A stretch of DNA of 64,000 bases, taken from NCBI RefSeq assembly GCF_032362555.1, contig NC_083511.1:6138001-6202000 (forward strand), read 5' to 3'. The notes below the pieces were generated by a model, which saw only the letters and a list, made by a program, of their open reading frames with translations, was not told where the DNA came from and searched no databases. This DNA is from Amyelois transitella (lineage: Eukaryota > Arthropoda > Insecta > Lepidoptera > Pyralidae). Position 1 is the stretch's first letter, and each line of letters begins with the position of its first letter. The translations under genes were made by a program, and so were the position numbers. Below, in pieces: positions 14,239 to 60,100 of the stretch.

Positions 14239-14497
14239 TACATACATACATACATATGGTCATGTCTATATCCTTTGCGGGGTAGACAGAGCCAACAGTC
14301 TTGAAAAGACTGAATGGCCACGATCAGCTATTTGGCTTAATGATAGAATTGAGATTCAAATAGTGACTGGTTGCTAGCCCATCGCCTAGAAAAGAATCCC
14401 AAGTTTGTAAGCCTATCCCTTAGTCGCCTTTTACGACATCCATGGAAAAGAGAGAGAACCACACGGCACTGTATTGGTGCCGGGAACCACACGGCAC
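14239..14497 (+). mobile_element. SINE-like element, copy 1, with 14-bp target duplication
   Basis: The element starts with an (ATAC)n run and ends in a gtgccg...cggcac hairpin. It is flanked by the direct repeat acctactagaagca at 14,225-14,238 and 14,498-14,511, a target-site duplication of retroposon type. Internal landmarks shared by all copies are ggggtagacagagcc, the hairpin agtcttgaaaagact, ttgctagcccatcgcct, gtcgccttttacgac and gccgggaaccacacggca. No clear tRNA-type B box was seen, so the promoter class is uncertain. Confidence 0.85.
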
Positions 14498-28854: not shown

Positions 28855-28899
28855 CATTAAAAAGTGATATAATAATTGCGTATTTATTGATTAAAGTAT

Positions 28900-29159
28900 A
28901 CATACATACATATGATCACGTCTATATCCCTTGCGGGGTAGACAGAGCCAACAGTCTTGAAAAGACTGAATGGCCACGTTCAGCTATTTGGCTTAATGAT
29001 AGAACCGAGATTCAAATAGTGACAGGTTGCTAGCCCATCGCCTAAAAGAGGAATCCTAAGTTTATAAGCCTATCCCTTAGTCGCCTTTTACGACATCCAT
29101 GGGAAAGAGATGGAGTGGTCCTATTCTTTTTTGTAATAGTGCCGGGAACCACACGGCAC
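28900..29159 (+). mobile_element. SINE-like element, copy 2, with 12-bp target duplication
   Basis: A full-length copy of the family at 14,239-14,497, from the catacatacata start to the gtgccg...cggcac end. It is flanked by tgattaaagtat at 28,888-28,899 and 29,160-29,171. It lies between IAP and the 3' end of MSH2. Confidence 0.88.
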
Positions 29160-32400: not shown

Positions 32401-35400
32401 GCCCATCACCTATAAGAGGAAGCCCAAGTTTATAAGCATATCACTTAGTCGCCTTTTACGACATCCATGGGAAAGATATTGAGTGTTTCTATTCCAAATA
32501 GCCGGAATACTAGTTGCAAGGGCTGTAAGTAGCTTGTAAAACAACAAAATATCTTTAAAAAAACTCCTTTGTATAACTATAAGAACCTGTGTTCTTCTAG
32601 TTTTCAAAGTCTTTATTGGAGCACAATCTGCCTAGTGGTAAGCAAGATGAGGCCAACGGTAGTGCATGCAAACTCAAATAATGCCTATTCATTTGCTTTG
32701 AAACTAATAAGGAAAAAGTAAAATAAAAGGCAAAAGAAAAATAGATTCATGCTTTTTGTTCTATCTTTATACATATATACCTACATCATAGTCATATATC
32801 TGTCTTGCTGTCATTAACTATGATCTTGTTTTTAAGAAGTTATAATAGCCTGTGTCTCACCCACAATATGGCCGCAGTCTCGATCAATTCCAGCATAAAA
32901 ATACTCTATTCCCTGTTCTCCCTCTCTGTCCCTCCCTGACTGCCAAGTCTCAATCTCTGCTCTGTACAGTGGCTAGTTACGTATACCCCTTTAATTTCAT
33001 GATGATTATTAGAATGAAAGCTGTCAAATTCATACTTTTTATGTTCCATCTTTGTCGCTCCCAAATCATAGTCATATATCTGTCTTGCTGTCTTTTAGTA
33101 CAATCAAGTTTTTAAGAAGTTGTAAGCCTGTGCTCACCCTCAGTATGGCCGCAGTCTCGATCAATTCCAGCATAAAAATAATCTATTCCCTGTTTTCCCT
33201 CTCTGTCGCCACGACCCCTGACTGCAGTCTCAATCTCTGCTCTGTACAGTGGCTAGTTACGTGTACCCCTTTAATTTCATGATGATTATTAGAATGAAAG
33301 CTGTCATATTCATACTTTTTATGTTCCATCTTTGTCGCTCCCACATCATAGTCACATATCAGTCTTGCTGTCATCAAGTATAATCAAGTTGTAAGCCTGC
33401 GCTCACCCTCAGTATGGCCGCAGTCTCGATCATTTCCAGCATAAAAGTGCTCTGGCCGCGGTCCTCGCGGTCGGCGGCGCCCACGCGGGCCGCCACGGCG
33501 CGCAGGCGCGGCAGCGCGGCGCGGCGCGCGGGCACCACGCAGCCGGCGTGCGCCAGCAGCGCCGCCACGCCGCATGACCGCATCCAAGTAGATTTCCCGC
33601 CCATGTTCGCGCCTGTCACTATGTGCGTTGTGCCTACACCTATATTGCGTTAAGATTAGGTTTTGCTTAACATAGCATTATACATACATACATATAATCA
33701 CGTCTATATTCCTTGCGGGGTAGACAGAGCCAATAGTCTTGAAGAGACTAATAGGCCACGTTCAGCTGTTTGGCTTTATGCTGGAATTGAGATTCAAATA
33801 GTGACAGGTTGCTAGCCCATCGCCTAAAAGAAGAATCCCATGTTTATTAGCCCATCCCTTAGTCGCCTTTTACGACATCCATGGGAACGAGATGGAGTGG
33901 TCCTATTCTTTTTTTTATTGGTGCCGGGAACCACACGGCACCAATAAAAAACGGATAGCATTATAATATTATCACGTAACTGTTACACCCAATACCCTAA
34001 AAGGTTTGATGATGTATTTGAGATTAAGATAATGACAGATTGATAGCGGGTCGCCTAAAAGAAGAAGCCTTTCTCTTGACTTACAATTATTACATTATGT
34101 TTTACTTGGCTACTATACTTATATGGAATTTAGGCACTTTAGCACTGGTAGCAGGAACTTAACACCCAGCATGTGCCAGTAAAGCAGCGACTCCACATGA
34201 TATCACCCAAAAAAACTTTCCTTCCATATTCGCGTATGTCACTATGTGTGTTGTGCCTACACGTACAATGCATAATAATACACTTAATCTTTTTTCAATT
34301 ATTTTGAAGGAATTGAGATTTCAATCAAATGAGATTCAGTTCGCTTGCAGTTTCTCTGCAGGACAACTGTAGTACACTGGTAACAGAAAGTTAACGGCCA
34401 GTTAGCTTGAAAAAAATAAGCTCACTGCTGGAGCATAAAGAGAAGTAGAATTCTAGGAAATGCTGAACACTACTTCGGACTTCGGTCCGCTTTAGTAGTC
34501 AAGGCAAACAATCCTTGCCTGTTTTGTCAAACACGCCTATATCCAAAACGAGTATTATTCCGACCGCACTCTTTGCAAAGGGGCCCGAAAGTATATCATG
34601 ATTTTACCACGCCTTAAAATATGTACTTAAACAATTCACTAACCTCGTTTAAACACAACATCATTGGGAATATACGACACTCCTTCTTGCACTTCTAAAC
34701 ACGGATGACGGACATCTTTCAAAATGAATTCATCCAAGCTTTCAGTGAGAACAGGCCGGCAGTATGGGTGGGGGGCGGAAGAAGCTGCTACAGCAAAAGA
34801 AACTAGAACGTCTAGTCGAGATAATATCTGAGATAGACACGACAGACATTCCGAGTATCCAGCTGAAACGGTAACACATTTATAGTTTACACACCTGAAG
34901 CATACATAAGTTAATCAAGATTTTTGTGTAATAATGAAAATAAATCGGTAAAGGGATGGAGGTGGAATATTTGAATTCTGAAAGTCTGAATATCCTGCTG
35001 AAATTGTAATAATATGTAAGTATACATTACTTATCGATAAAAAAATTATTCACTATCAAGAAAGCAGTCACATTGAACTAGACATGCAGCGGACAACATC
35101 AAGATAGGATGGCAGATTTTTTTGATTATCCGAAATCTTAATAATACTGTAAATAATTGTTGTTGCTTAGGGTTGGGCATGCAAGGAAAAGTAAACTCAT
35201 ACCAATAAAGTCTATAGCGCCACCACACGGCTACTCTGATACCTCTACAGGGGGTTATTAATGATAATAAGCAAGGCAAGTTTATCTTTTCTTTCTTTTA
35301 TTCTCTAGACGTTATCAAAAAAATTAGAAAATGAGAGGAGATATATCATATGCTTTGTTCATGAATTGCCGATAATATCAAAACTTAAAAACAAAGACTT

Positions 35401-38400: not shown

Positions 38401-41400
38401 ACAAAGTTCTAAATAGAGTTGTGTGTAAGGGAGCATCTTTATTTTGAGGGAGAGACATTTCTTTGTGGAAGCGGCTATATGAGATCTCTTGAATCGTTAT
38501 TCCGATTGCACACAGAGGACGCAAATGTGACAAACGCTCGGAGAAGTCCCTCTTTTTTCTCTGTGTGTATACGCTAATATCGGAAAGTTGTGGACGGATT
38601 TTGTTCTTGTTGGAAATGTTAGAAAGATAGTTTTCTGGGAAAGGTTCATATCTACAAAGGCTACCCGTACGAAGCTGGGGCAGGTTGCTAGTTCATATAT
38701 AAACTTGAGGCACAGATTGATACAAAGTGATGCAAGATCTGACCAACTGTTGACAAATTTTACATAAATGACACTCTGAGTAACAGTATTAGGTACTCAA
38801 TTCATACTCGTATTAACTCACCTGCCGAAGTTAGTATTGTCTGACAACAATGACATATATTTGACGGCCGCAGCTAGACTAGTCATAGCTGTGTCATTCC
38901 TCGTTTCTGGAAAAGCGTTGGCGTCCTGAGTTTGATTCTCTTTAAACTTGAGGAGGCGATTGAGGTCCTGGATCAGACCTTCGGTGGAAAACTCGCTCTT
39001 TTTCAATTTAGTCAATGTCACACTCGCTCGGTCCATTACTTTTTTGAGCGCTTTATACTGAAATATCAAGCAGTATTTTTTAAAATAAAAGTGAAATAGA
39101 CGAGCAAAAAACCTGAAAAAGTTTTCAAGTACTACCTAATAAAACATAATGAAAACTCAATAAAATGAAGACCTTATGCACAGTACATTAAACTCAAAAT
39201 CCAAAAACAAGATATGTCCTACTATCTCACATCAGCATGAAATAGCGGAGAATACAGTTAGCGGGTTTAAGTTTCGTGCTCTGTTGGGCTGAAACACTCA
39301 AATATTTGCGCGCCACTTTCTGCATAGGTATATTAGTGTAAATTATAAAAGTGGTGATACTGTAACAGATTTATAAATTGTGATTCTTCTTTTATACTAT
39401 GGCCTAGCAGCTTGTCACTATCTGAATCTCAAGTCGTCCGTCGTCCAAGAGTCTTTTTGAGACTATTAGCTCTTTCTTCTCCGTAGAGGGTGCAGACATG
39501 ATATACGTTTGTACCATTATTTGATCTTTCTTACGTCACATTTATACATAATCTTACTTAACAATTTAGCGGACTGAGGTCAACCGCACTCAAATCGTGA
39601 CAGACATTCGGATTTTATATAGAACTAGCGACCCGCCCCGGCTTCGCACGGGTGCAAAATTATAAATGTTATTATACATAAAAACCTTCTTCTTGAATCA
39701 CTCTACCTGTTACAAAAAACCGCATCAAAATCCGTTGCGTAATTTTAAAGATTTAAGCATACAGACAAACCGACTAAAATAGCGACTTTATTTTATACTA
39801 TGTAGTGATGTAGTGAAGAAGTACGGATACATACGTCATCGTTATCGCTAAGGGGTACGAGGCACTCCGAAGGCGCCATTTGCACCACGATCGTCTCCAG
39901 CCCCGTCAGCAGGTCATCGTCGGTGAACTCCGATACTGATAACTGGTACTCGTACACTGATACACACGCGACGCCTAGAAGACGACCCTGAAAGATGACA
40001 ATGATTTAGTTTGCTTAGTAATATCAGTGGTGCTAAAACCAAAATACTCCAAAAAAATCCCAGTTTCTTTCAACGCATAAACGCAAAATTAATATTTCAA
40101 GAGTAAATCAAATTACTTAGATGTGTAAGAGTTGAATGAAACCCAAATTGTTTCTTTAATGAATTAATTTAATAAACATCATAAGTACCTTGGTCATCGT
40201 ATCCGTCTTTATATTCACTGCCATCAAGCACTGGGCATTTTCCTCAGAAACCCCGAGACCCTCTCCTAAAACCTCTTCTAACTGAGACAAACAGCCAGGC
40301 GACCCTTTGTATCTAAGCACCCAATCGTTGCTCTTTACTGAACCCTCTGCTACGTATATTTCTACTCTGTACCGTCTCACCTTAAAAATAAGAGGTTTAT
40401 TATTATCATTGATATTTTATACGTTACTTAGATTTGTTTAACTTTTTAAATCGCATCAGATCGGAGTTCTGACATATTGTAGACATTGAAATATTGTCTG
40501 TAGAGATATTGTGACTGGAAATCATACCAAAAAAGAGTATAATAAAATTAATGATAAAATCGTTAATACTTTGAATAGAACCCGGAATTAATAGAGCAAT
40601 GTCAATAGCATCATTAAAATGATAAAACAAATCGATCCACGATCAGCTCTAACATTGGTCAAACATAGATAAAATTAACTACAAACAAATAGATGACATA
40701 TTTAAACAAACAATAATAACATTGAATACAGTGTAAGGTCACTTGCTTTATGTGCTTAATAATAAATCGGTAAAACTATGTTATAAATATATTTTTAATA
40801 AATTTATATCTAAGAAATAAACATATTTTTCACAAGTCGGTACGTCGTACCTACGTCACAATAAGAAACCTAAGAATTTTTATGAATAAAAATCTTTATA
40901 AATCGGGTAAAGGTTTCAGTTCGGAAGAAAAATTGAAAATGATACTTAGGTAAACTACTTAGGCAATTCTTCGTTGTAAGCTGTTAAAATCGTGGGCTAA
41001 CAGAATTTATTAAAAGTCTTCATTTACCAACAATAGTTTCTTAATGAGTGTTTCGAAGTTTCCTTTAGAGAGCACCAGGTAATCCAATTTATTAGGCTCG
41101 ATCCCCATTTTTTTGATATTGGAGACAGAGGAAAACACCTCTCTTGCAGCGGTGGTGGCGTCCACGCCATGGACACTGTAGTAGTCATTGCGATCAAATA
41201 TTCTCACTGTGGTTGGTGGTTTCTGAAATTTTATTAAAATTTGGTCAACATAATAAATGGAATAAGAAAGAATTTATTTTTCACTGTTGAATTCACAGGA
41301 CAGCCGCATAAAAAAGTACTAGGCGCGATATAGAACCTCTATTTAGTTTGTCGCGTCCACAATCAGGCACGTATCAGCAATGAAAATTTTGAACATAATG

Positions 41401-44400
41401 GACTCCTTAATAAATTTATTTGAGAAGCGCCGTACTCAACCAGGGCGGGTCAACTAATGAGACCGACGATAATATGCCTTCGCCAGTTTTATCAGTACCG
41501 TAGCTTGTCGATTCTCTGGAGCATTAAGAAGTCAGATTTATATAGGATCTACGTTCTATATAAGAAATATAAGAACGGACCACCGAACTGCTATTGATTG
41601 CTTTTATTATTTCTCGTTACTAGCGACCTTGCATAAATTAAAGTAGTGATGAATTTGGATGAACTAATTAAGTATCATAAGCAAGTGGAAACTCGTAGTC
41701 TCGCCTACCTCTCGGGAATAAACTTTTTAATGTGGATGCTACCGGCGAATATCGACGACTACTACTAATTAAAATATATTTTTACAAAATGGAAAGAATA
41801 TTTTCCTTATTTACTTCATAAACAACATGAAGGACTCCCGCGACCGACATAAAATAAATTGTAGTATTTCTTGTAATTGGATAAAAATGCTCGCCCTATA
41901 TTTTTAATTGAGAGCAATGTCAAAGTAAGTATTGTTATCACATTTTATTAATATCACAACAATTACAGTTATGAGACCAACGTATAATTACCTAAATAGT
42001 ATAATTTGCAATGTGAAGTTTGATACTGAAAAACTACAGTAGGACAAGCAGTTTAAGTAACACTAGATTATGTTATTTCTCTCTACATTGGTAAAAAAAT
42101 ATATTAAAATCTAATTTTAATTTTAATTTATGTCAAATTGTGGACGAATTTGGCATGAAATTTTGAGCGCACATAGGAGTCTTAAATCCACCTTTGTTTG
42201 CATTATGATCAAATTACTTTAATAAAAAACGCAATAAATTTCAGGCTTCCTTCATACAAGCCACAGCAGAATCTTTGAGTTATTTTTCTATAACTTACAT
42301 TCTTTTAGCTGCTGTTCTTGTCCTAACAAGTTCCAAATCACTAACTTTGACGTCTTATCACTTTTTAATTAAGATTTTATTAGTAGTAATGCTGGTAGCA
42401 AAGAAAATCTTGTAGTCTGTGGCAGCTGCTTTTCTTCCCGCGCAGTCATTTAAAATTCAAAATGGAAAAGCTTAAGTTAATTGTAAAGTCATCTGTTACT
42501 ATCTAAATCTTAATCCAGTAAGTCCTTGTCCAGGTAAACGTTGCCTTCTAGACTTGTGACTTTTGGCCTCTACCCCGTAAAGAATAAAGACTTGCATGTT
42601 GCGTGTGTGTTTTCTAAAACGAACTATGATTCAAGTTATAAAATGACTTCATTACCATTGAATCACAGTTTATAATATAATTAATGAAAATGTTAACGAA
42701 ACATTTTACGAATTTAATATTTTTGTGGTTTTTCAATACTAAACATTTTGTGTCGTATTTTGCACATATTTCTCAGAATGAAGTATCACTCATGACCTGG
42801 CCGGAGGTTATCTTTGAAGTGATAGAAAATTAAAACATTATAAATTGGCGTCCCGCAAATAGGGAATGCCAGTGCGTGTCAGCAAGGTGTAGTGTCAATC
42901 TGCGGTTATTTAAAATTTAGGATCGTTTATTACGGTGTGTATTTTTGTGGCTGCATCTCATTTGCATTACTTCTCGATATTCGACGTCCACTGCTGGACA
43001 AAGGTATGTCTCTTTTTGAGCCCCAAGTTTGGTTAAACCAAAGAGTATCTATTTATTTATGTAAGATCTACTTAAATAATAAATGGATAACTTTGATTTT
43101 TATAGATAAAAACAAAAGATGTCTGACTGATCCATTCAATGCCCAGCTAAGTTTAGCTGGGCAGTAAATTTTCTAAGTAGTAAAAAAGAGGATCGCTAAA
43201 GATTTTTGGACAATTTTACGGAACGATGCCCGAGTACCGGTTAGTTAACTACTCAGGTTAAGTAAAAAGATTACACAGTAACTACATGTGATTATCGATA
43301 ATACGAAAAATGTAATCTTGGGGTAACATTTTTAAATCAAATACGACGTAAACAACGTTAAAGAGCATCATAGACAAATGTTAAATTTTATAACAAATGA
43401 CTTTTGTTCAGTTTCATATAACGAGCCAAAAAATTGGCTATGAAATATAATAACGCAAATATTTCTCATAATTTCAGTATCAAGTATGAGGTACCTGGTC
43501 CTCATAACTGTGGTCTTAGCAATAGCCGCAGCCAGGCCGGAGATGTATAGAGAGAAAGAAGACTTCCAGTATTCTAGAAGTTCAAGTGATGAAGGTTCCA
43601 AATCAGGGTATTATGGTGCGCAAAGAGGAAATATGGGCGGGAATTACGAAAAAGCACATAATATGGATTCTTTAGCTCAACATCAAATGAGCGGTCTCAT
43701 CCACCAAGTCGATGGCGAATTGGGAGAAGGTTCTAATACAAAAAGTGGCAGTGTTTTCACTGCTGCAAATTCCAGAGGAATGTATGGATCAGGTCATTAT
43801 GACACGAGTAATCTTGAAGGACGTAACTTCCAAGAGGGAACATCTTTTGGAAATTCTCATTCCCAAAGTGCTCTAACAAATTCGGCATACAGGGATCAAA
43901 CATCTAGAGAGAACAGATACAGTAATAGCAATAGTTATTCACACAGCTCTAGACATAGTAATTCCGAACAGTCTGAATATGAACAGCGGGAAGGAGTACA
44001 AAGTAGTAATCTGAGATCTGGAGATAGATCATACCAACAAGAATATGGAACCTACGATGGTTCTTCAAGACTAACACACTCGACCTCTCCTTATCAAAAT
44101 AGGCTAGTAAGCACTAGGCCCATGAGAATTTTATTACGTCCAGGTACTAGAACAACAATTCCTATTGCTACGCAAACCTATGATGCTGAGCACAGCGCAT
44201 CTTCTTACGATGCGTCAGAATACAATAAAAATGCTGCTAAAAGTGATGCAGAACTTATTACACACAATGCTCATTCTAGTAGTGTTAACAATGTCCCTGA
44301 AAATAAGCACTATGAATCATCATACAGTTATCACAAAGAATGGGAAAAACATCATAGTAACCCCGGTGTAGCTCCACTCGGTATCGACACGGATCGTTCA

Positions 44401-47400
44401 CTTCCAAAAACTAGTGAATTATACGATGATTCACAACAAACGCAAGCTTATAACAGTAGAAATCAACAATATACATCGAATGCAGCAGGTTCTCATCATA
44501 ATCATCATTCAAGCAACTCATATGGATACAATACAAAAAGTAATTCAGCTTCATCCAGTCACTCAAGGCAGCAATCTGAATATGATATACAACGCGAAAA
44601 TTTATCGTCTGCCTTAAATTCTATTGTTGGTAATGGTCATCAATCTAACTACGATGCTGATTATGTAAACCAACAAGGAACAACGAATTCTAAGCCGAAA
44701 AGCTATCAGTCATCATATTCATATCATAAATCATGGGAAAGGCAAGGAGATCCCTATGTCATAGTGCCAGTTCCAGGTGGTCAAAACGGTCAAGAATCAC
44801 AAAGACTAATTGCTGCATCTAACACTCACAATGGCTATTCATCTCATCAATATGGTGCTAATCACAAGCAATCACATCAAAGTTATTCAAGCAGTAATGG
44901 ATTAATGGATTGTGATTGTGATGAAGAAGGACATGTCCGTGTTGCCCGGTCTTACAATAGTGATCAAGAACTACAACAGCAAAATGGATGGGAAGATTTT
45001 GGACAACATTCACAGAATCAGTGGGACACACAGAGTCAGGATTTAGGACAGCAATCACAAAACCAATGGGATAAAATAGAAGATTTGGGACAACATTCAC
45101 AGAATCAGTGGGATACTCAAAGTCAGGATTTGGGACAGCAGTCACAAAACCAGTGGGACAAAATTGAAGATTTAGGACAGCATTCACAGAACCAATGGGA
45201 TACTCGAAGTCAGGATTTGGGACAGCAATCACAAAACCAATGGGATAAAATAGAAGATTTGGGACAACATTCACAGAATCAGTGGGATACTCAAAGTCAG
45301 GATTTGGGACAGCAGTCACAAAACCAGTGGGACAAAATTGAAGATTTAGGACAGCATTCACAAAACCAATGGGATACTCAAAGTCAGGATTTGGGACAGC
45401 AATCACAAAACCAATGGGATAAAATAGAAGATTTGGGACAACATTCACAGAATCAGTGGGATACTCAAAGTCAGGATTTGGGACAGCAGTCACAAAACCA
45501 GTGGGACAAAATTGAAGATTTAGGACAGCATTCACAAAACCAATGGGATAAAATAGAAGATTTGGGACAACATTCACAGAATCAGTGGGATACTCAAAGT
45601 CAGGATTTGGGACAGCAGTCACAAAACCAGTGGGACAAAATTGAAGATTTAGGACAGCAATCACAAAACCAATGGGATAAAATAGAAGATTTGGGACAAC
45701 ATTCACAGAATCAGTGGGATACTCAAAGTCAGGATTTGGGACAGCAGTCACAAAACCAGTGGGACAAAATTGAAGATCTTGGCCAACACTCTTACAACGA
45801 TAGGGGCAAACCGGATTCATTTGATCAACAATCACAAAGTAAGTAAGAGAAGTACTATGAAAAATAAAAAAAGGTTTTATACCATGTATTTCCTTCTTTA
45901 CATGTAGAGTAAGTGTAGAGTATAAAATAAACATACATATGATCATTGATCATGCGTCTTTAATTTTTAAAGGAGTAGGCAGAGACTATATTTTTTTGCT
46001 TGCAACATACTGTCCACATTCATAGATGTTTTCATACAGGCTTGTTAGTTAAGTAAAAATATATATTAGCAAAATAATGCCTTTGGAACCGTCAAAACGA
46101 GACAATATTTTATGTCTCTGTATTTCTCTATTTTTAAGAAGCCACTGACATAAATTTACGGGCTTAATTTATAAAATGAAATAATCTGAAACTTATTTAG
46201 GAAAACAATATTTGATTTTAAAATTATTTTTTCCTGATAGGCAATGTTAACCAAGAACAAACTAAACGGAATAAATTAAAGAAATCACATAAACAGTCAA
46301 ATACAAACAACCATGAATCACAGGATGCAGACGATTTATTTAAACCTTTAGATGATCAATCACTATTCAACCCTAATATTAATACATTTTCTGAGGTTGA
46401 AACACACTATACTGACAACGGGCTAGATAAAGAAGAAACGGTTCATGACCATAAATACTTACACCAACACGTACCTGACCAGACAAGAAACAATGAAAGA
46501 GATCAACATGCGTCTATCAATAATTTGTGGGACAGGTTAGACAGTTTAGATAAAGAATCTTCACTTAACTTTAATACACATAATTATCACGCAGAAAATA
46601 ACATTTATATACCTTTTTCACAAAAAGTAACAACTGCTACAGATGTCTCATCTGAAACACCTGACAAAACTAAAAGTCATCCGAAAGATTTTGGCCGTGG
46701 TGATATAGAAACGGAAAATTCCGAATTCGAAACATCTATATCAAATACTGAAAGAACAAATTTTTATTTAAATGCAGATTCTAACTTAAACAACAAAAAT
46801 ATCCACAGGGCAATACAAATAGAAGGATCAAGTTTATCATCAAATAATCAAGCAAATACGACACGCGGAAATTCTGCACAACAAACCAATAATAATTCTA
46901 TGGAATCCATTCCCCAACAAATTGAAGAAATAAATGATAAAAAAATAATAAAACCTAAAATCAACAAAATTAACGAAAAGAGAATAACCCAAAATAACGA
47001 CGACCTTATATCGAAAAAAGTAACTTCAGACCTACATAGTATAAATCAACTTGAAAGCAAAGATAATATTAATCAAATAAAGCTTCAAGATTTAAGCGCG
47101 CCTGATGAAAGCTTTGATAAAAGTAATCAAAGAGATTTAGAACAACATAGCATGGCGCAGGACGATCAAAATTATGCTAGTTTTGTTCAATATGACTCAA
47201 ACCATTACTTTGAAAAATTAGGAGCTTTTAGTGAAAATTATGGTCAGCATAACGTGAACCAAAACTTTGACAATATTTATCCACAGATTGAAAACTTAGA
47301 TCAGCAGATTGTATATGAAGATAACAGTGGACATTCTAGTGATAATCAAAAAAGTTTAAAAGATGACTTTAAAAATAAAAAAAAAAATCGCAGAATTATG

Positions 47401-49591
47401 GCACAGGATGGTCATAGTTTTGATATGGTTGGAGAAGAGTTTGATCACGCACAATCAAAAGACAACTTTATGGACGTCAGCACAATAAATGAAAACTTTG
47501 ATCATCAGAGTGTTAATCAACAGTATGAGACCTTCGATCAGCAACACGAAAACTTAGACCAACATGAAATAGAACAAAATTTACAGAATTTTGATCAATC
47601 AAATGACAATTTTGACCAAGAAAATTTAAACCAAAACCTTTATGGCACGAGCAAGCTTTACGAAACATTTGACCAGCAGAAAGAAAATCCTTATAATGAC
47701 AAAGGACATAGCAATGATGAAGTCAGCTTTTATATTCAAAATTTTGGCAAGCCTGATCAACAAAAATCGAAGCCAAATGAAATTAATAACAAGTTGGATG
47801 AAAATGTCGAACCACCCAGAGAAATTTTCGTGCAGCAAAACTTTGATCATACTGGTCACGAAAGGGATACATCAGTAATAGAAAAAAATAGGCAAGAATA
47901 TTCAGATCAATCCATCTCACTTAATGATCTGCAAGAAAATAAAGAAATATATAATCCATTGTCTGCACTTGGTGAACAGAATATAGTTACAACTACCATA
48001 ACACCTGAACCAGAACAAATAGGATTTTGGGCTTCAGTTGGAAAAAAAATTAATAAGGCCAAAGATAAAGTAACTTCCTGGTTTCGGAAAACACCTGAAA
48101 AATAACTGAAAGTATTTAGCATTACTATGTCATGTATTATATTAATATTTAAATTAATTATATCTTTATTAATATATAATAACTTACTTCAGGTAGTCCA
48201 TGGTAGTACTTTATGAATGCTTGTTGCTGAACAGAATCTGAAAAAACGAAATTTTTTTTTTGTAAAAAGTTATGTTTAATATATAACACTTATTTACCAG
48301 ATTATTGTTTTATTATTTAAAATAATCTTAGTTACTATTTTTAAAAAGTGTTTTATTATTTTAATGCTTCTCTAACTAGAATAAAAAACTTTGTTTTAAT
48401 TAAACCTTGCATTGTTTAAAAGATTGAGTTTTGACTAAGATTGATTGAATTATAAATAAGAATCTAATTCATGACAAAATGGATCTAATTCAGTTATGCC
48501 TTATATCATATTTAAAAAGGAGTCAACAACTCCACTTATAATGACCGATCACATTTAAAGACGGATTTCCACGCATATTGTCCTATTATAAGGACGTGCA
48601 CAAAAACGTAAACGCACAAAACGTAAACAAATCGAAGTTATTAGCAACAAAAGCTATCCCTGCCCCGCGCACCCACCTTGCCTGTGCATCGCGGATGGTT
48701 TGTTTTTTTTTTAATCTTTTTTATTGTATTACAAGCACTGAAGGCTGCAGAAGAACTGGCTTTGTTTGTGCCTTCTGATTTTGAAGACAACAACATGAAA
48801 AGTATTTTCTCAATTGCATAATGCAGTCCGTACTTCTTACTATAAAAATAAGAAACAAAAATAATCAGAAATTACAGACTAATTGCAGTAGGTGTTGTGT
48901 TGTTTTAAATTACAAATAGATTAATTTATAATTTCTTTTCATTCTTAGTACACTTTTGTACCATATATGTATGCATATTATTAAGTGAAATAAATGAATA
49001 TTTTTATTTCGATGTTTATTTTGTCTGTTACCTTAATACATATTAATATGTAAATACATTTTGTACATGATTATTAAAAAAATATTGATTGTTTGTTACA
49101 ACTTCTGGTTATTACAATGTAATATCACTGGTCCTTTGAACATTGTTGTTATAACCATATATATATGCATACACACATACACATAATCATATCCCTTGTG
49201 GGGTAGACAGAACCATCAGTCTTGAAAAGACTGATAAGCCATGTTCAGCTGTTTAGCTTTAAGATAGAATTTAGTTGAAGTTGATAGCCCATTGCCTTGA
49301 AAAAAGAATCTCAAGTTTATAAGCCTATCCCTTTCCAGGAGAAAGAAAGTATATAGAACCCAAGCTTACAAGATTAAAAATTCTTAAGAATACTTAGGTA
49401 CATATTATTTAGAAATGACAAGTACTGGAACCCCATTCGGGCTGGTTATAGATTGTTAGTCGGTAATTGAGTGGAGGGAAGGGAAAACATGTTGCTTACA
49501 TTGAAGTCTTGAAACATATAAACAATAAATGAAATTAATTTCTTGTGAACTTACCCAAACTCAGAGCATGTATAGGTTGTAATGCTGACAT
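29443..49591 (-). CDS. Msh2: DNA mismatch repair protein MSH2 (MutS homologue), complete
   Basis: Sixteen exons, read 5' to 3' on the - strand, each with GT/AG borders and continuous phase: 49591-49555, 48237-48188, 41222-41028, 40380-40189, 39987-39835, 39057-38822, 38057-37899, 37517-37310, 36887-36728, 36139-35965, 35587-35403, 34862-34644, 33633-33407, 32275-32184, 31637-31412, 29661-29443. They give 910 aa, close to the usual 930 or so. The order is the MutS mismatch-binding domain I (about 17-130), connector, lever/clamp, and ABC ATPase (about 655-850). The Walker A reads [10 protein letters not shown] around K670 and the Walker [13 protein letters not shown] around D743/E744, with the FATHYH loop in exon 15. 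MSH2 pairs with MSH6 in the nucleus to detect mismatches; insects generally lack MSH3. Identity is clear from colinear similarity over the full length. Oddities: Ala replaces the usual Pro in Walker A, exon 13 is very GC-rich, intron 2 contains another gene, and transposons crowd several splice sites. Confidence 0.95.
29695..30551. mobile_element. Short TIR DNA transposon with THAP remnant, in MSH2 intron 15
   Basis: The 15-bp terminal repeat aataggctatttgac (29,695-29,709) is repeated exactly in reverse complement at 30,537-30,551. The flanks share acagcgt (before the left end, and one base after the right end), suggesting a 7-8 bp target duplication. The interior carries a THAP-type start on the + strand and, on the - strand (30,235 to about 30,090), coding-like peptides such as [11 protein letters not shown] and [14 protein letters not shown] in broken frames. 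It also has an 18-bp hairpin at 30,126-30,166. A P-like or another THAP-bearing superfamily fits; the catalytic part is absent. The left end lies about 33 nt from the MSH2 exon 16 border. Confidence 0.7.
29935..30063 (+). pseudogene. Truncated THAP zinc-finger domain ORF
   Basis: A 42-codon frame starts [12 protein letters not shown], continues with a [17 protein letters not shown]-type segment and ends RKKWFQIM before a stop. This is the first half of a C2CH THAP domain: the first cysteine pair and the conserved Pro and Trp positions are visible, while the later Cys and His ligands are missing. THAP domains bind DNA and occur at the N terminus of several transposases. It lies inside the TIR element at 29,695-30,551, so it is most likely a transposase exon remnant. 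Confidence 0.65.
31130..31350 (-). pseudogene. Decayed partial copies of MSH2 exon 15 (in intron 15)
   Basis: Two pieces resemble the true exon 15 at 31,412-31,637. About 31,265-31,350 matches its 3' half: the frame reads [12 protein letters not shown], then [11 protein letters not shown], and is then broken by a 2-base loss in place of gaccttccgg. About 31,130-31,215 matches the centre of the exon (cgcaacccact, tcctggtgt, tcgtgttgctg on the - strand). Both lie downstream of the real exon in transcription order and cannot encode a working ATPase segment. Confidence 0.8.
32284..32512 (+). mobile_element. SINE-like element, copy 3, abutting MSH2 exon 14
   Basis: Carries the family's atacatacatatagtcacgtc start, the ggggtagacagagcc-like core (gcagggtagacagagcc) and the gtcgccttttacgacatcca motif; its 3' end is diverged. 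The 5' end begins about 8 nt from the acceptor of MSH2 exon 14 (on the - strand), so the pyrimidine tract of that acceptor includes SINE-derived sequence. Confidence 0.8.
32784..33406. repeat. Tandem array of about 280 bp units carrying dead exon-13 ends
   Basis: catcatagtcatatatctg at 32,784, an almost identical string at 33,064 and another at 33,345 mark three units with a period of 280-281 bp. Each unit leads into a copy of the 3' end of MSH2 exon 13: 32,862-32,955, 33,138-33,235, and the true exon at 33,407. The second copy still reads [13 protein letters not shown] before a kept GTGAGC donor but has a stop codon just upstream (ERENRE then stop). The copies are AT-rich where the true exon is GC-rich. 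Confidence 0.85.
33683..33954 (+). mobile_element. SINE-like element, copy 4, with 11-bp target duplication
   Basis: A full-length copy flanked by atagcattata at 33,672-33,682 and 33,955-33,965. Here the element has a short tail (caataaaaaacgg) after the cggcac terminal hairpin, as expected for a retroposon 3' tail. It lies in MSH2 intron 12, 50 nt from exon 13. Confidence 0.88.
34000..34076 (+). mobile_element. Decayed SINE-like fragment
   Basis: gagattaagataatgacag, then gatagcgggtcgcctaaaag, matches the middle of the SINE-like family with many changes. It is an old copy in MSH2 intron 12. Confidence 0.5.
34140..34256 (-). pseudogene. Decayed copy of the MSH2 Walker-A exon (exon 13, 5' half)
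   Basis: After a tgtag acceptor identical in placement to the real exon, the - strand reads [16 protein letters not shown], then [13 protein letters not shown], then a stop. The true exon reads [16 protein letters not shown] and [13 protein letters not shown]. The P-loop glycine and the Ser-Thr pair after the lysine are lost and a stop follows, so it is a dead duplicate lying 5' of the true exon (33,407-33,633) in transcription order. Its codons are AT-rich, unlike the true exon. Confidence 0.88.
37070..37300 (-). mobile_element. SINE-like element, copy 5, next to the MSH2 exon 8 donor
   Basis: A reverse-oriented copy from gtgccgtgtgg to acgtgactatatgtatgt. It occupies more than half of intron 8 (36,888-37,309). 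Its 5' end reaches within about ten nucleotides of the exon 8 splice donor (GTAATG at 37,309-37,304). A possible short target duplication, aagaac, flanks it. Confidence 0.85.
37770..37830 (+). mobile_element. Short fragment of the SINE-like family
   Basis: ttagtctctttttacgacat followed by ccaagggaaagagatagagtg matches the 3' third of the family. No start or target duplication is visible. Confidence 0.55.
38130..38380 (+). mobile_element. Decayed R1/Jockey-type LINE reverse-transcriptase C-terminal fragment
   Basis: In shifting frames it reads peptides like [22 protein letters not shown] and [11 protein letters not shown]. These match the C-terminal region of moth non-LTR endonuclease-reverse transcriptase proteins (the AGHIARR...GRPPxRWTDD stretch). 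Multiple stops and frameshifts show that it is dead. It lies in MSH2 intron 6. Confidence 0.6.
39360..39505 (-). mobile_element. Decayed SINE-like element (reverse)
   Basis: tggcctagcagcttgtcact, then gagtctttttgagactatt, agctctttc and a ccgtagagg-like segment match the reverse complement of the family with many substitutions. Confidence 0.55.
39622..39815 (+). mobile_element. RTE-like LINE 3' end
   Basis: actagcgacccgccccggct then tcgcacgggtgcaaaat, aatccgttgcgtaatttta and catacagacaaaccgac, ending ttttatactatgtagtgatg. The last string recurs in reverse complement at 54,231-54,250, so the two are copies of one family. It lies in MSH2 intron 5, ending about 20 nt from exon 5. Confidence 0.6.
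41223..43485. other. MSH2 intron 2, part upstream of the nested gene
   Basis: AT-rich intron sequence with a dispersed-repeat fragment near 41,690-41,726 and no supported exon. The last 100 nt probably hold the start of the nested + strand gene: ttataaca at 43,388-43,395 and an initiator-like ttcagtt at 43,407-43,413, then ataatttcag at 43,469-43,478, which could be an acceptor from a 5' UTR exon. Confidence 0.4.
43486..48105 (+). CDS. Secreted Q/N/S-rich tandem-repeat protein nested in MSH2 intron 2
   Basis: Two coding exons, 43,486-45,838 and 46,241-48,105, joined across a GTAAGT donor and a tttcctgatag acceptor in matching phase, giving about 1,405 aa. Residues 1-16 ([16 protein letters not shown]) form a clear signal peptide. 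The first 500 residues are rich in Ser, Tyr, His, Asn and Gln, with two SSYSYHK(E/S)WE motifs (about 283 and 410). Residues about 505-765 are a tandem array of a 29-residue unit (GQHSQNQWD + [15 protein letters not shown] + KIEDL). Exon 2 is rich in Asn, Gln and Asp with recurring ENFDQ-like motifs and ends in a basic amphipathic tail (GFWASVGKK...VTSWFRK). There are almost no cysteines beyond one CDCD spot near 480. I do not recognise the family; low complexity, the signal peptide and repeats suggest a silk-gland, cocoon or other extracellular-matrix protein. If intron 1 is retained, a TAA at 45,844 would give a 786-residue form. Confidence 0.85.
44998..45780 (+). repeat. Coding tandem repeat, 87-bp unit with higher-order 174-bp pattern
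   Basis: Eight full 87-bp units (15 + 14 residues) and two lone 14-residue half-units. Neighbouring full units alternate in silent sites (for example gacaaaattgaagattta versus gataaaatagaagatttg), giving a 174-bp higher-order repeat. Very low divergence points to recent unequal crossing-over or gene conversion. The antisense long open frame here is a by-product of the repeat. Confidence 0.92.
45844..45927 (+). terminator. Possible intronic poly(A) site of the nested gene
   Basis: If the exon 1 donor at 45,839 is not used, translation stops at 45,844-45,846. AATAAA strings follow at about 45,863 and about 45,925. This would give a short isoform ending just after the repeat array. It is an inference from the sequence only. 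Confidence 0.35.
49169..49340 (+). mobile_element. SINE-like element, copy 6 (3'-truncated)
   Basis: Starts atgcatacacacatacacataatc, carries ggggtagacagaaccatcag and tcttgaaaagactgataag, and loses similarity after aagcctatccct. It lies in MSH2 intron 1. Confidence 0.8.
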
Positions 49592-50447: not shown

Positions 50448-53400
50448 ATGTTGATTTTTAAGTGTGGATTTATTACATTAACCTCTACCTACGCCCTATC
50501 GTAAGTATAATATTATTTGTTGGTTTATACATAAAACAACACCTATGTAATTCAAACACCTAAGTATTAATTCCTTATTGAAAAAAATATTAATTAATTA
50601 ATATGTAACAAAATCTTGCATAGTGCCAAGTATATGTGGTATACTGTTAAGTTACTTGTTAAGTTGCAACATGTATCTTCAGATATGTTAAATAGGTATC
50701 AGTTATAGAAAAGAAGCTTTTGAAAATAAAAATTAGGTACCTACATATTTATGTACTTTCACTTCTCACTGTTTTTAGACTTATTTGACAATTTATCAAA
50801 CTTGTTCTTATTGCATTTCAGTCTCTGCTTTCAAGTTGCGAAAGAGACAAATTCTTTGGATATTGGCCTTGCTTTTTTGTATGTTGCCAGTGGAGTAATA
50901 GGTGAGAGGATAAGATGCTTTGTTATGTAAACTATGTTGAAAGTCAGTAAATGCAACAATAAAATAACTACAATCAGCAATTGCATTATTAGGTTGCTAA
51001 CTAAGATTAGTTTCTGTTTAGAATTTAGTATCACTAAATACACCTACTCATAATTTTATGACTTTGCTAACATTATGTTAGCAGTTTCTTGAGTCTTAGT
51101 TTTGGTTAATTGTATTATTCCAGGTGTTCCAGGTAGAAAACTAAATTTTTTTAAGAATACTTACATATTATTTTGTAATTGTATTACTAACTACTTACCC
51201 ATTTGTGTTTGCCAAATATTTTATTTTGGCAGCTGGTGTACTAAAAGGATATTAATTGAATAATAACTGACTGTGGGGTAAATTGATTTGTGATTTGTCT
51301 ATATTTATAATCATTATAATTTGTTTATAATTTCTCTAACAATTTGCTAACAATCTTTTCAGCTGGCAAAATCATATATGACAGATATCAGCAAATACAT
51401 GTGCTAGGCTCACTAACATCCAATCCAAATGTGACTTCCCTTGCAAACCGGATAGCTTCCTTCTCTGCCTCATTTGTGTCAGTAGGCTTCCTGGTTTATT
51501 ACTTCCTCTTCCTTTTTAAGGTAAGGGAGCAAACAAGTACGAGGGTGGTTTGAAAAGTTCTCGGCCTAACCTAGATTTGAGGGTAGAATAAAAATAAGAA
51601 TATACTCATTCGATAGATTGATTCTTTATTTACAAGTATGTTAAATTTCATTGTGATAGGTTGTGTGATTATTTTTTTACGATTTTTTGTTTGAGCTAAT
51701 CTGACTCTCTACCGGAAAAATGGAAAAAACCGAAGTAAGAGCCGTGATTAAATATTTCGTCAAAAAAATATGACACCTAGCCAAATTAAGGAAGACATGG
51801 ATAACACTTTGGGTGAATCTGCGCCTTCGTATTCGACGATAAAAAAGTGGGTAGCTTTATTTAAACAAGGCAGAGAAAGCGTCGAAGATGACCCTAGGAG
51901 CAGAAGGCCTTCAACGTCCACCACGCCAGAAATGATCGATAAAATCCATAAAATGGTTTTAGACGACCGCAGATTAAAAGTGCGAGAGATAAGTGACACT
52001 ATAGGGATCTCAACCGAGTGGGTATTTAATATTTTAACCAATGAACTTGGAATGAAAAAGGTTTCGGCAAGATGGGTGCCGCGTTTGCTGACCACCGAAC
52101 AAAAACTCAACAGAGTTGAAATTTCAAGCGAGATTCTGGCCTTGTTTAGGTCAAATACCGCCGATTTTTTGAGAAGATTTGTTACCACCGATGAAACTTG
52201 GATACATCATTATATTCTTGAAACAAAAGAACAATCAAAACAGTGGAAACATAGAGGTTCTCCGCCTCCAAAGAAGGCCAAGGCGATAAAGTCTGCAGGA
52301 AAAGTGATGGCATCCGTGTTTTGGGATTACAAGGGAATAATTTTTATTGACTACCTTCCGAAAGGACAAACTATTACAGGCCCATACTATGCTAACCTGT
52401 TGGATAAATTAGCAGAAAAAATCCGTGAAAAACGCCCGGGATTGGCGAAAAAAAAATCCTTTTCCATCAGGATAATGCACCAGTGCACAAGTCAGTTGTT
52501 GCAATGGCTAAACTCCATGATCTGCGTTTTGTAGTATTGAACCATCACCATTATTCACCGGATTTAGTACCATCGGACTATTATCTGTTCCCTAATTTGA
52601 AAAAACACCTGGCTGGCAAGAAATTTTCCACAAATGAAGAGATCATAGCTGAGGCGGAACGTTTTTTCGACGAGTTGGAAGAATCGGCCTATAAGAGTGG
52701 CATAGAAGCCCTAGAATATAGATTAAATAAGTGTATTGAGACAAGAGGGGATTATGTAGAAAAATAAAAATATTTTTTTGTTTATTTATCGTTGTTTTCT
52801 TAGACGGGCCGAGAATTTTTCAAACCACCCTCGTATGTGTTGACTAATTTTGTGCATGTAATTTTGATTGTAAAATAAAAGATAAATTTTTGGTTAGATC
52901 ATAAATCAATGGTTGACTGATAAATAATGCTTCTAAGTATTAAGTTCACCAATTACCATATTGCATATTAAAATTTAATAAAATAAACAATATAAAATAA
53001 ACAATTATTTATAATTAATAATGTAGGTTTAGTGTCCTACATAAGTGAAGTGCACATTTATCAGGTACCTATCAATCAAGGTGTTGTATGAGAAGAGTGT
53101 GGCTGACATTTTGGTTCAACTAAAGTGCCTGTTAATATTAAAAATATAGGAGCCTGCTTAATATATAATATATATTAGCATATTTTTGTGCTTAACACAC
53201 TAGAATTGATTTGACATAAATTTTTAACACCTTTTTTTATGTCTTGTGTGCCTGTTCATTAATTGTAATTGCAAAGTTCATGGTAACTATTTACATATAT
53301 ATAAAACTTTTAAAATTTTGATAATTTACTAAAATTTCCTTTGCAGGTGGATAATCATTGCCTCATCGCATTGAGTATTTTCATATGCGGGTTTGGAACA

Positions 53401-55689: not shown

Positions 55690-56325
55690 CCCGAGGCCGT
55701 GCCCGCCCCGGGCACGGAACACCAGACCAAAACACCCAACTCGCCTTTTTACGGTAGTTTTGGTCACACTAAAATAAAAACAGAAAACGTTACAGAAGAA
55801 ATACAGGACAATGATAGCGGTATGTCTTCAGAAGAGACCGAGGATTCTCTCAGATTAGTCGTAAGTGACAATTACGTAATAAGTTCATCCGTAGCTGATA
55901 AAGTAATAACCAAGTGCCTAAATAGCGAACCTCAGTGTGATGAGCGCCGGAATGGAATTCCTTGTTGCTCAAACGACGTAACTTTAAGTGTTGTTAATGA
56001 AATTAATACCGGGTCTTACCCGGACAAAAGCGGTTCTGAATCCGATAAAAACACATCGGACTTTATTGTGATAGATCTGACATGTAATGTCAACGATCCC
56101 AGTCGCCGGAAGGCTGTTGGTACAAAAACAAATGATTGTGATCGTTCAAGTATTTGTAGTGTAGATTCATGCCAAAGTTTAGTTCCTGTTCTGAACAACG
56201 AAATTGTGAATACTGAAAACCAGAAGTTGGTAAGTTTATCGTTATCCATACTCCTCGCCGCATTGCTGCAAGCGATGCGATGTTTTGCCCAGTTCTTAGA
56301 GAATATTGTTATTCCTCAAAGGTAA
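55690..56325 (+). other. In-frame open extension after the DRAM-like UGA stop (candidate readthrough)
   Basis: The frame of the last DRAM exon continues without a stop for 211 codons beyond UGA (55,687-55,689), whose next base is C, the leakier context. The extension is protein-like: an acidic, Ser/Thr/Asn-rich region (EEIQDNDSGMSSEETEDS, SESDKNTSDFIVIDLT) and a hydrophobic end (LSILLAALLQAM...FLENIV). Its first methionine is far inside, so independent translation is less likely. A strong donor-like TTG|GTAAGT at 56,227-56,235 suggests that exonic sequence may stop there in some transcripts. It may otherwise be a 3' UTR with a chance frame or a sequencing error at the stop. Confidence 0.5.
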
Positions 56326-57145: not shown

Positions 57146-60100
57146 TTATATGGACGCCTCATTGATGACTGTAATCAGTCTGTTGTTTGTGTTATGGCAC
57201 TTTTTCTTCCACTTGATGGAGTTATTGGGGGAGATTTCAGTCTCCTGGATGGTGGAGGGTTGTGGTGAGTTGGCGACCACGATGGACCAACGACGGTTGC
57301 GTCGCTCGTTCAAATTGGGTAGTTCTGCTATCAGGTTGTTTTCGTACTCGCTCAGCATTAGGTAATTTTCCACCTGGGTGAGATAATTTAATATATATAA
57401 TATCAGAAGTCTTATATTTGTGTATAATTTTGTCTCATACAAATGGGTTGGGTTGGCCAAAATTCACTCACGCCAAGGCGTGCAATGGTTTCTTTATATG
57501 CAGGGCTTTTTGCTTTTTACACTTTGATATACGATGATTATTTTTATGTTTCTTTGCCATTTTGTAGCCTTATCACAACGATCAGCTCATTATTACTGTG
57601 ATTGGAAAGTTGGTCCAAATCGAAATAATCGAACGCACAAAGATGAGAGGAAGAGAAAATGTACATACATATAATCACGTCTTTATCCCTAACGGGGTGG
57701 ACAGAGCCTTGACTGCAAGGCCACGTTCAGCTGTAGGGCTTAATGATGGTATCTATTGAAATTCAAATAGAGACAGGTTGCTGATACATCGCCTTAAAAT
57801 AGAATCCCTAGTTTATTAGCTCTTCTTCTTTTAGGGACAAGATGCTAGCCTATCGTCTTAAAAAGAATCTCAAGTTTATAAGCCTATCCCTTAGTCGTCT
57901 TTTACGACATCCATGGGAAATAGATAGAGTAGTCCTATTCTTTTTTGTATTAGTGCCGGGAACCACACTACACAAAAAGAAAATAAGAGAAAAGTTTGTA
58001 AAAAACCTTGTTACAACTGGTGATACAGTCCCCGCCGCAATCTAGATCTTCCAACAGGTGCTCGGGTATGTCCAGGTCGAGGTCGAGGTCAAGGCCGCCT
58101 TCCTCACTGATGCAGGTCAGCTCAGGCGGCACGTTAGTCGGCGGCGACCCCAGGCTGCCTGGCCCGATGCTTTCCAACAGTAAGTCGCGCCCGGTACGAC
58201 CTGGTGCTACTAATTCTGCTCCTAGAACTAATTTAACGAGTATTAACTTCCATGCATACATATTTTTTACAATGTAGGTATGTATAAGGATGTTGATTAG
58301 GTAATGTTTGGGATTGTTATAATGAGCAAGGAAACGCTTGTTAGGATAAAGCATACCTACCATTTACCAGTTGATTTTTTCACTCGCGCAAATCAGGGGC
58401 GTAGCTACCGCCGTATCTGCCGTATCAATTATACGGGGCCCCCGAGCCACGGGGGCCCCAAAGTGTGTAAGGCAAAAGAAATAAAAACTTCCTAATTTAT
58501 TTAATTTTACAAATGACAAAATTCTATAAAGCAATTACTTTTTATCCCGCCTTAAGCGTGCGTTCAAAAGTTGGCAACACTCTACATCGTTATGGCGGGC
58601 TGCGGGACTTCCCCGTTTTACTTACTTACATCTGCAACTCAGCGGGGAATCCCTCAATAATAAAATCGATATCACGATGTACGTGTACGTCCATACTCTA
58701 CATTTGATGTTAAACCACGGAGTGCAGTGCAGTGTTTATTTACGCGTTTTATGTAATTGTGCATTACCTACATTGTAATTCAGTACAAACAATATTGTTC
58801 TTCTGGTTTAACAATATTAGTAGCGATTTGTAAAAGAAATGAGTGAAAGGAAAAGAGATTATCCCAGCGGTGCTGAGAAAAGAAAAAGTAAACGGAAAAG
58901 GGAAGAGGTTATAAAAAAAGTGCCCAAAATTTCTTCATTTTTTCAGAGACAAGATACTGTGAGTGATTTAGATTGGAAAGGTAAGTACTACCCAACCCAT
59001 TTATTCGGGGTCCGTAGTGATTAACAAGGAAATCTTTTAATTTCGGTCTGTCAATCTGTCCGTCACAAAAAGTGGTCTCCCCCCCCCCTCGTTTTTCACA
59101 ACTACTGGTCCAAAAATCTAAAAAAGATATTGGAGACTCCTTACTAATTAAACTTTTACATGAAATTGGTTTGGCAAAAATGTTAAAACGGATAAGGTTT
59201 AAAAATAAATGTCAAATTGTAAAATTAGTTGTTCGAAAAACCGAAGTACTTACTAATTTACACAAGTACTATTTTACACGACGCTAATGTGGATCTGCGT
59301 GGTTAGATACGCGTGGTTGGTTTATTATTTACCTGTAGCGAAGGGTAAATTTTGTTTCTAGGGTGCCTCGAAACAAAAAAAAACCGAAACTAACTTATCT
59401 ATAGGATCAATTTGTTTTGTTGTTTGTCTATCAGTCTGTATCGTATCGTAAATTGCGTGTTGAGAAGATGTGCAGACTCGCTTTCGGGTTGTTCTCGTTT
59501 TGTATGGCCACTACACTACGCGCTGCGTTCAAATAGCACGCAGGTGTAATGTAACGCACGGACGGATTTTGTATCTACTAATACGAACACAATCCGCGTA
59601 AACACTAATTGTAACCCTTAGTAAAGTTATTTATTTATATATAACTCTTTTTAGTTTAGTACCAAAGCATTCGTATTTATTTTTTAACGAATACTCGTTT
59701 ATTTTTAGATTCTTCTGAAGCACGTTCTGCGTCAAATATCCATTCGGAAATAGAAGAAAGTCAAGCACATACTTCATCGGATGTCCATCCAGAAATTGAA
59801 GAACACCAAGTCAACGATTCTGATATATTTGAGGATTGTAATATAATTTCATCAGATAGAGGAAATTTCGGTGACAATTTATCTGAATGCGAACGAAAAA
59901 TAATTTTTAAATTGGGTCCATTTAAACCACAAGGACCATTTCCAAAAGATCCAGAAAGTAACCGACCTTTTTCGGCCTATTATTATTCATATTTCAATCA
60001 GGCAGGCATAAAACTTGTAAGACCATGGTTATGTTATTCTAACGTTTTAAACAAACCGTACTGTCACTTCTGTTGGTTATTAGCAGATCGTCAAAACAAA

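Follow-up and report, generated by a model that had tools for sequence, protein, structure and literature searches.

A gene nested in MSH2 intron 2

The window, by which is meant the whole stretch of DNA analysed (64,000 nucleotides of Amyelois transitella, C7:6138001-6202000), carries MSH2 on its minus strand. Alignment with human MSH2 places the coding part of exon 1 at 49555..49591, exon 2 (50 nt) at 48188..48237, exon 3 at 41028..41222 and exons 4, 5 and 6 at 40189-40380, 39835-39987 and 38822-39057. Together these six exons encode 287 residues, of which residues 3-287 align with residues 2-287 of the human protein (E = 5.2e-68), and MutS domain V is found in the open frames 33374-33649 and 31379-31681. 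Introns 1, 3, 4 and 5 measure 1,317, 647, 201 and 777 bp, against 6,965 bp for intron 2 (41223..48187, minus strand), which hosts a second gene. This nested gene runs on the plus strand, with coding exons at 43486-45838 and 46241-48105 that join into a single reading frame of 1,405 residues. Its coding region (43486-48105) lies wholly within the one opposite-strand host intron, with the ATG 2,263 bp from MSH2 exon 3 and the stop 82 bp from exon 2. The initial annotation had described a two-exon gene of about 1,405 aa at 43486..48105, nested in MSH2 intron 2 and stopping 82 bp from exon 2, and all of these positions proved exact.

The surroundings contain several other coding frames and mobile elements. 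A 362-aa frame at 24963-26051 (+), with two BIR domains and a RING finger, is an inhibitor-of-apoptosis protein (IAP). At 51752-52767 (+) lies a mariner-type transposase (PF01359) that looks broken, its reading shifting frame from 52429, and at 59660-62065 (+) an 801-aa frame with DUF4371 and a hAT dimerisation domain represents a hAT-type transposase that appears uninterrupted. A 211-aa frame at 55690-56325 (+) found nothing in Pfam at E <= 0.1 and could be one exon of a gene that went unrecognised. A short interspersed repeat, at most some 185 bp long, which we take to resemble a moth SINE, occurs at 49165-49333 and at eight other sites in the window (for example 14238-14421, 28898-29078 and 33680-33860; one copy sits in MSH2 intron 1), the copies being 73-88% alike where matched and some of them partial. 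Beyond the window, two frames of 1,061 and 1,063 aa with nearly identical ends, 85 kb apart (G000:C7:6039628-6042810, L006, and 6124898-6128086, L014-L015), are probably copies of a mobile element. No tRNA was found, and Rfam gave nothing at gathering scores, with one chance-level match (E = 0.95) at 45032-45101 on the minus strand.

Structure and coding capacity of the nested gene

The first coding exon (43486..45838, +) comprises 784 codons plus one nucleotide, and the last (46241..48105, +) the remaining two nucleotides of the split codon, 620 codons and the stop TAA. The intron between them (45839..46240, +), predicted from a splice-site scan, begins with GTAAGT and ends with TTTTTTCCTGATAG. 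The frame stays open with eight of the GT/AG combinations scanned; by eye the strongest sites are those at 45838/46241, with an AAA/GTAAGT donor and a TTTTTTCCTGATAG/GCA acceptor, and spliced translation across this join gives the 1,405-aa reading without interruption. Retention of the intron would end the exon 1 frame at 45846 and yield a shorter protein lacking the exon 2 part.

Both exons stay open far beyond chance. The longest frames in 500 dinucleotide shuffles reached 182 codons for exon 1 (784 observed), 160 for its non-repeat part (501 observed) and 153 for exon 2 (620 observed). In the non-repeat part of exon 1, GC content is 0.47, 0.45 and 0.26 at first, second and third codon positions; exon 2 has a similar third-position value of 0.25, compared with 0.52 in the MSH2 exons.

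Upstream of the ATG, an acceptor-like TTTCTCATAATTTCAG (43462..43477, +) ends in a CAG (43475-43477) only 8 nt before the start codon, so that a non-coding 5' exon is likely to precede the first coding exon. Three TATA-like sites occur within 2.2 kb. One of them, TATAAAT at 42839..42845 (+), is followed about 30 nt downstream by CCAGTG, and the pair is a weak promoter candidate for the nested gene. The CCACTGCTGGAC at 42988 resembles a repeat common in moths.

A search of the genome with exon 1 (327 Mb in 33 contigs, 26 candidates scored) returned a single match at E <= 0.01, the exon itself, a result that covers exon 1 only. Across 264 kb around the gene, open frames reaching 180 aa number 17, and only the two of the nested gene have a GRAVY below -1. 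Out to 100 kb beyond either end of the window the scan thus shows no further large exon of this kind, although it would miss genes split into small exons.

A hydrophilic repeat protein

The first 17 residues (43486..43536, +) are the only strongly hydrophobic stretch that the hydropathy scan finds in the protein, and they can be read as a signal peptide, with cleavage presumably following residue 17. The mature part has a mass of 159.6 kDa, a pI of 4.94 and a GRAVY of -1.47. Over the whole protein the commonest residues are Q (12.5%), S (12.2%), N (10.2%) and D (8.5%), a composition that suggests a largely disordered chain; Ser rises to 14.8% in exon 1, and S, T and P together make up 19.4%. 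The only two cysteines, C476-D-C478 (44911..44919, +), are N-terminal to a tandem repeat array, and the motif SSYSYHKxWE occurs twice, at residues 278 and 409. At the C-terminus, a cationic amphipathic segment (48025..48102, +), predicted to be helical, has the highest helical moment in the protein.

The array (44992..45788, +) consists of 18 full units and one degenerate unit of 15 and 14 residues, mostly alternating. A 33-nt core common to the 18 units has seven variable columns, all seven at third codon positions (hypergeometric P = 7.7e-5). The units are homogenised and hence not independent, so this pattern counts as support for constraint on the encoded repeats and not as proof. Of the nine repeat alleles, six are silent in the plus frame (where 15 of 99 possible changes are silent), and one minus frame likewise gives six of nine (22 of 99), and the strand can therefore not be chosen from silence alone. 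An open frame of 363 aa on the minus strand (44858-45949) crosses the repeat and is regarded as a by-product. The idea that exon 2 arose from the exon 1 repeat by copying and decay is rejected as unproven: its score against the repeat consensus was reached by 135 of 1,000 shuffles. A short motif occurring eight times in exon 2 was reached by none of 5,000 shuffles, the choice being biased in that the motif was picked after looking.

Searches of Pfam, NCBIfam and PDB gave only chance-level matches and no credible domain, in line with the absence of a recognised family in the initial annotation. Taken as chance were a Pfam RNA_pol_A_CTD match (E = 0.036) and an NCBIfam fut_nucase match (E = 0.00033; 20.4 bits, the cut-off being 124.7), the two falling within the array, as well as M2-1 chains from PDB (E = 0.043 and 0.05) in exon 2. 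Viral contigs gave 2 and 7 pattern stretches, none of them confirmed, and none would be expected for a moth gene.

Avoidance of N-glycosylation sites

For a protein so rich in N and S, N-glycosylation sequons (N-x-[ST]) are scarce. Only three occur (residues 372, 990 and 1002), compared with a mean of 23.7 and a minimum of 11 in 2,000 residue shuffles. With the signal and the array left out, the three compare with 20.9 expected, and none of 2,000 shuffles was as low. The same holds in each part separately: residues 18-503 contain one sequon (9.4 expected) and the stretch from the array end to residue 1405 contains two (11.6 expected), again with no shuffle of 2,000 as low. In genomic terms, the stretches outside the array, at 43537-44994 and about 45820-48102 (+), encode about one-seventh of the sequons expected from residue shuffling. 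Most of the signal lies in N-x-S (2 vs 14.6 expected, 0 of 2,000 shuffles as low), N-x-T alone being weak (1 vs 6.3 expected, 26 of 2,000 as low).

Is this a peculiarity of residue order or of the composition of the region? The reversed triplet is not depleted over the same regions (28 vs 20.9 expected), nor, in the nested protein, are the control motifs N-[ST], N-x-x-[ST] and Q-, D- or E-x-[ST]. Depletion was likewise absent from all five control proteins and from the four wrong plus-strand frames tried across the two exons. Observed and expected counts for the controls were 8 and 9.4 (hAT frame), 2 and 2.2 (IAP), 2 and 2.0 (MSH2 N-terminus), 1 and 1.2 (mariner) and 5 and 4.4 (L006 frame). 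Residue order is not fully random, since some other spacings lean the opposite way, for example [ST]-x-x-N (31 vs 21.4, with 23 of 2,000 shuffles as high). The test was unplanned, arising on a recount, and its controls were chosen afterwards.

The most natural reading of the depletion is selection against N-glycosylation, which would require that the protein be translated and enter the endoplasmic reticulum (ER). The depletion thus supports translation and ER passage of the nested product, and, since it holds in each exon separately, it would tie exon 2 to the same secreted product. Secretion of a Q/S/N-rich repeat protein encoded antisense in MSH2 intron 2, which the initial annotation had already proposed, is now backed by two kinds of evidence, the hydrophobic N-terminal segment and the sequon test with its controls. 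That the gene is real and its product secreted, taken as one joint claim, we consider very probable.

Comparison with silk-coat proteins

What kind of secreted protein might this be? Among the published proteins compared, those closest in hydropathy and commonest residues are Gm-P150, Ek-Csp1 and YC-Muc2, the comparison being one of composition only. According to the available part of the source, the pyralid silk-coat protein Gm-P150 (155 kDa, GRAVY -1.25, pI 4.75) has serine-rich repeats, with S, Q and N as its commonest residues (PMC9745057). The nested protein resembles it, by composition alone, in mass, hydrophilicity, acidic pI and these three residues. It differs in serine content (12.2%, against 22.4% in Gm-P150 and 34.6% in Ek-SerP150; PMC9745057) and in having no CXCXCX near the C-terminus. 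Ek-Csp1 of Ephestia kuehniella (OP185497), which the same excerpt describes as known from transcripts only, has S, Q and N as its commonest residues, a GRAVY of -1.30, a mass of 58 kDa and a pI of 6.6, (PMC9745057); it is presumably homologous to one of Galleria LOC113523011, LOC113515440 and LOC113511581. Here too the likeness is one of composition only, in the three commonest residues and in hydropathy, whereas mass (159.6 kDa in the nested protein) and pI (4.94) differ. For YC-Muc2, a Gln content of 17.1%, a GRAVY of -1.27 and a pI of 5.37 are given (PMC9684489, available part).

Assignment to a named silk family is another matter. In the accessible portions of the sources, sericin repeats are tandem and lie within large exons (PMC9684489), the sericin-1 family is marked by CXCX near the C-terminus and mucin-1/P150 by CXCXCX (PMC9684489; PMC9745057), and sericin genes are clustered (PMC9745057). 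The nested gene shares with the sericin-1 family the hydrophilic character, the tandem repeats in a large exon and the presence of a CXC. This CXC, however, lies at residues 476-478 of 1,405 and contains the only cysteines, so that neither the CXCX nor the CXCXCX mark is present near the C-terminus, and the protein is therefore not filed in sericin-1 or mucin-1/P150. The neighbourhood is not that of a sericin cluster either, the nested gene's own two being the only strongly hydrophilic frames among the 17 described above. Serine in Ser1 is reported as 14-17% in Ephestia and 22-35% in Galleria (PMC9745057, available part); exon 1 falls within the Ephestia range and the protein as a whole falls outside it. 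The definition of a mucin as having Pro-Thr-Ser motifs over about one third of the protein (PMC9745057, same portion) does not fit an S+T+P content of 19.4%. With two cysteines and no credible Pfam match, the protein is not a Cys-rich zonadhesin-like silk protein with TIL/EGF domains. The Pfam scan of either exon gave no match to fibroin light chain or P25. P25 is a lepidopteran silk protein, and a gene of its family (PF07294) is present elsewhere in the genome, on C28, where four exon-sized matches exceed the cut-off, one with an internal stop; PF07294 matches were found in none of 14 control genomes.

Silk or extracellular matrix had been suggested earlier from composition. That suggestion survives in part: hydropathy and commonest residues are like those of published silk-coat proteins, one of which is also close in size and pI, and the C-terminal Cys motifs of sericin-1, mucin-1 and P150 are lacking. 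In favour of a secreted polymer of silk-coat type are the single hydrophobic segment, at the N-terminus, the presence of two Cys in 1,405 residues and the fibroin-P25 family gene elsewhere in the genome; against it are the Ser and S+T+P values, which are low for most sericins or mucins, and a neighbourhood unlike the published sericin clusters. The reading preferred here, at a probability of about 0.5, is by analogy that of a functional moth gene for a secreted hydrophilic coating or adhesive polymer of silk-coat type, its nesting in MSH2 being probably neutral. The silk part is drawn from composition and is plausible to about the same degree; the product would be an orphan hydrophilic secreted polymer, perhaps of the silk coat. 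In such a polymer, the tandem core, rich in Q, N and W, and the short tail, cationic and amphipathic, would belong to a very hydrophilic and probably largely disordered chain, which would be hydrated and would bind by hydrogen bonding of its side chains and by tryptophans set at regular intervals. The near absence of N-glycosylation sites would be maintained if N-glycans spoiled packing or contact. Transcription would start from the gene's own promoter within the intron.

Composition is weak evidence for tissue, and the same real secreted repeat protein could instead belong to another matrix, such as egg glue or eggshell, cuticle, gut lining or male accessory secretion. The evidence for secretion and for the repeats fits this equally well, the silk-defining motifs are absent, and the flanking 100 kb on each side of the window show no comparable large exon. 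Nothing positive points to any of those tissues, however, and a literature search on moth egg glue turned up no moth glue proteins by title or by the start of the abstract. Another matrix is a real, if tentative, possibility.

Nesting and its possible effect on MSH2

The architecture of the locus is ordinary, as published surveys show nesting to be common in animals, opposite-strand nesting included. The available parts of these surveys report that in Drosophila about 6% of genes are nested, frequently on the strand opposite the host, and that host and nested expression are not significantly correlated in 109 human and 752 fly pairs (PMC3786989); that 567 opposite pairs in Caenorhabditis elegans are co-expressed less than neighbours, yet a majority have a cell type in common (PMC12274878); and that overlap occurs less often than expected in five metazoan genomes, antiparallel overlaps being enriched (PMC2330155). 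Two described cases are close in layout, although the genes themselves differ from the present pair. C. elegans ceh-10 lies whole in one opposite-strand intron of polq-1, a DNA-repair gene like MSH2 (PMC12274878, in part), and Drosophila 2mit, which also has two exons, is nested on the opposite strand in one intron of tim2 (PMC3786989, in part). Among the literature matches listed, judged by title and the start of the abstract, a gene nested in an insect MSH2 was unreported, which is no proof of absence.

Where would the nested transcript end? The usual spacing between poly(A) signal and cleavage site is 10-30 nt. There is no AATAAA between the nested stop and MSH2 exon 2. A variant signal, AATATA, lies at 48171..48176 (+), from which the usual spacing would put cleavage at the edge of exon 2; the first canonical AATAAA downstream of the stop (48380..48385, +) and a second AATATA (48278) lie beyond exon 2. 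With the likely poly(A) sites at or beyond exon 2, the nested mRNA may reach that exon or its donor in antisense.

It is conceivable, then, that nested transcription alters MSH2 output, either through antisense pairing over exon 2 and its donor or through an intronic promoter that yields a short MSH2 from exon 3. As the first AATAAA is at 48380, exon 2 and the donor could fall within the nested 3' UTR, and loss of the 50-nt exon 2 would shift the frame. Precedents in the accessible text of the sources are ceh-10, which induces a short transcript of its opposite-strand host polq-1 (PMC12274878), and a greater shift of nested genes when Drosophila expression diverges (PMC13343718). Against this, the AATATA at 48171 could stop the transcript at the exon border, and the available parts of the published work describe nesting as mostly neutral, with co-expression reduced and not absent (PMC3786989; PMC12274878). 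A regulatory role of the nesting is considered improbable. More improbable still is its strongest form, in which mature antisense RNA over exon 2 and the donor would cause loss of MSH2, by exon-2 skipping or RNA interference, wherever the nested mRNA is strongly made; if true, a secretory gene would turn mismatch repair down in a terminal, endoreplicating gland.

That the open frame has fallen out of use and is not expressed, as might be argued from its single match in the genome and the lack of a recognised family, is hardly credible for 1,405 codons open across a clean intron, with a repeat core that varies at third positions alone and sequons avoided at the protein level in both exons, the sequon test having halved the little weight this idea had carried.

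Significance

For now, the locus is a further case of a gene nested on the strand opposite its host, its product being a secreted repeat protein of no recognised family; under the preferred reading of a secreted coat polymer, the nesting is probably neutral in itself. The avoidance of sequons suggests a way of testing orphan disordered proteins for secretion without recourse to homology, and other silk-like genes would be candidates for such a test. Should the 3' ends prove to overlap MSH2 exon 2, the pair would also allow antisense effects between a housekeeping host and its nested gene to be tested cleanly. Coat proteins that evolve fast are difficult to detect via homology, and the conserved host provides a syntenic anchor: intron 2 of MSH2 is open to inspection in the genome of any moth, which would give the age of the nested gene and the changes that its repeats have undergone.
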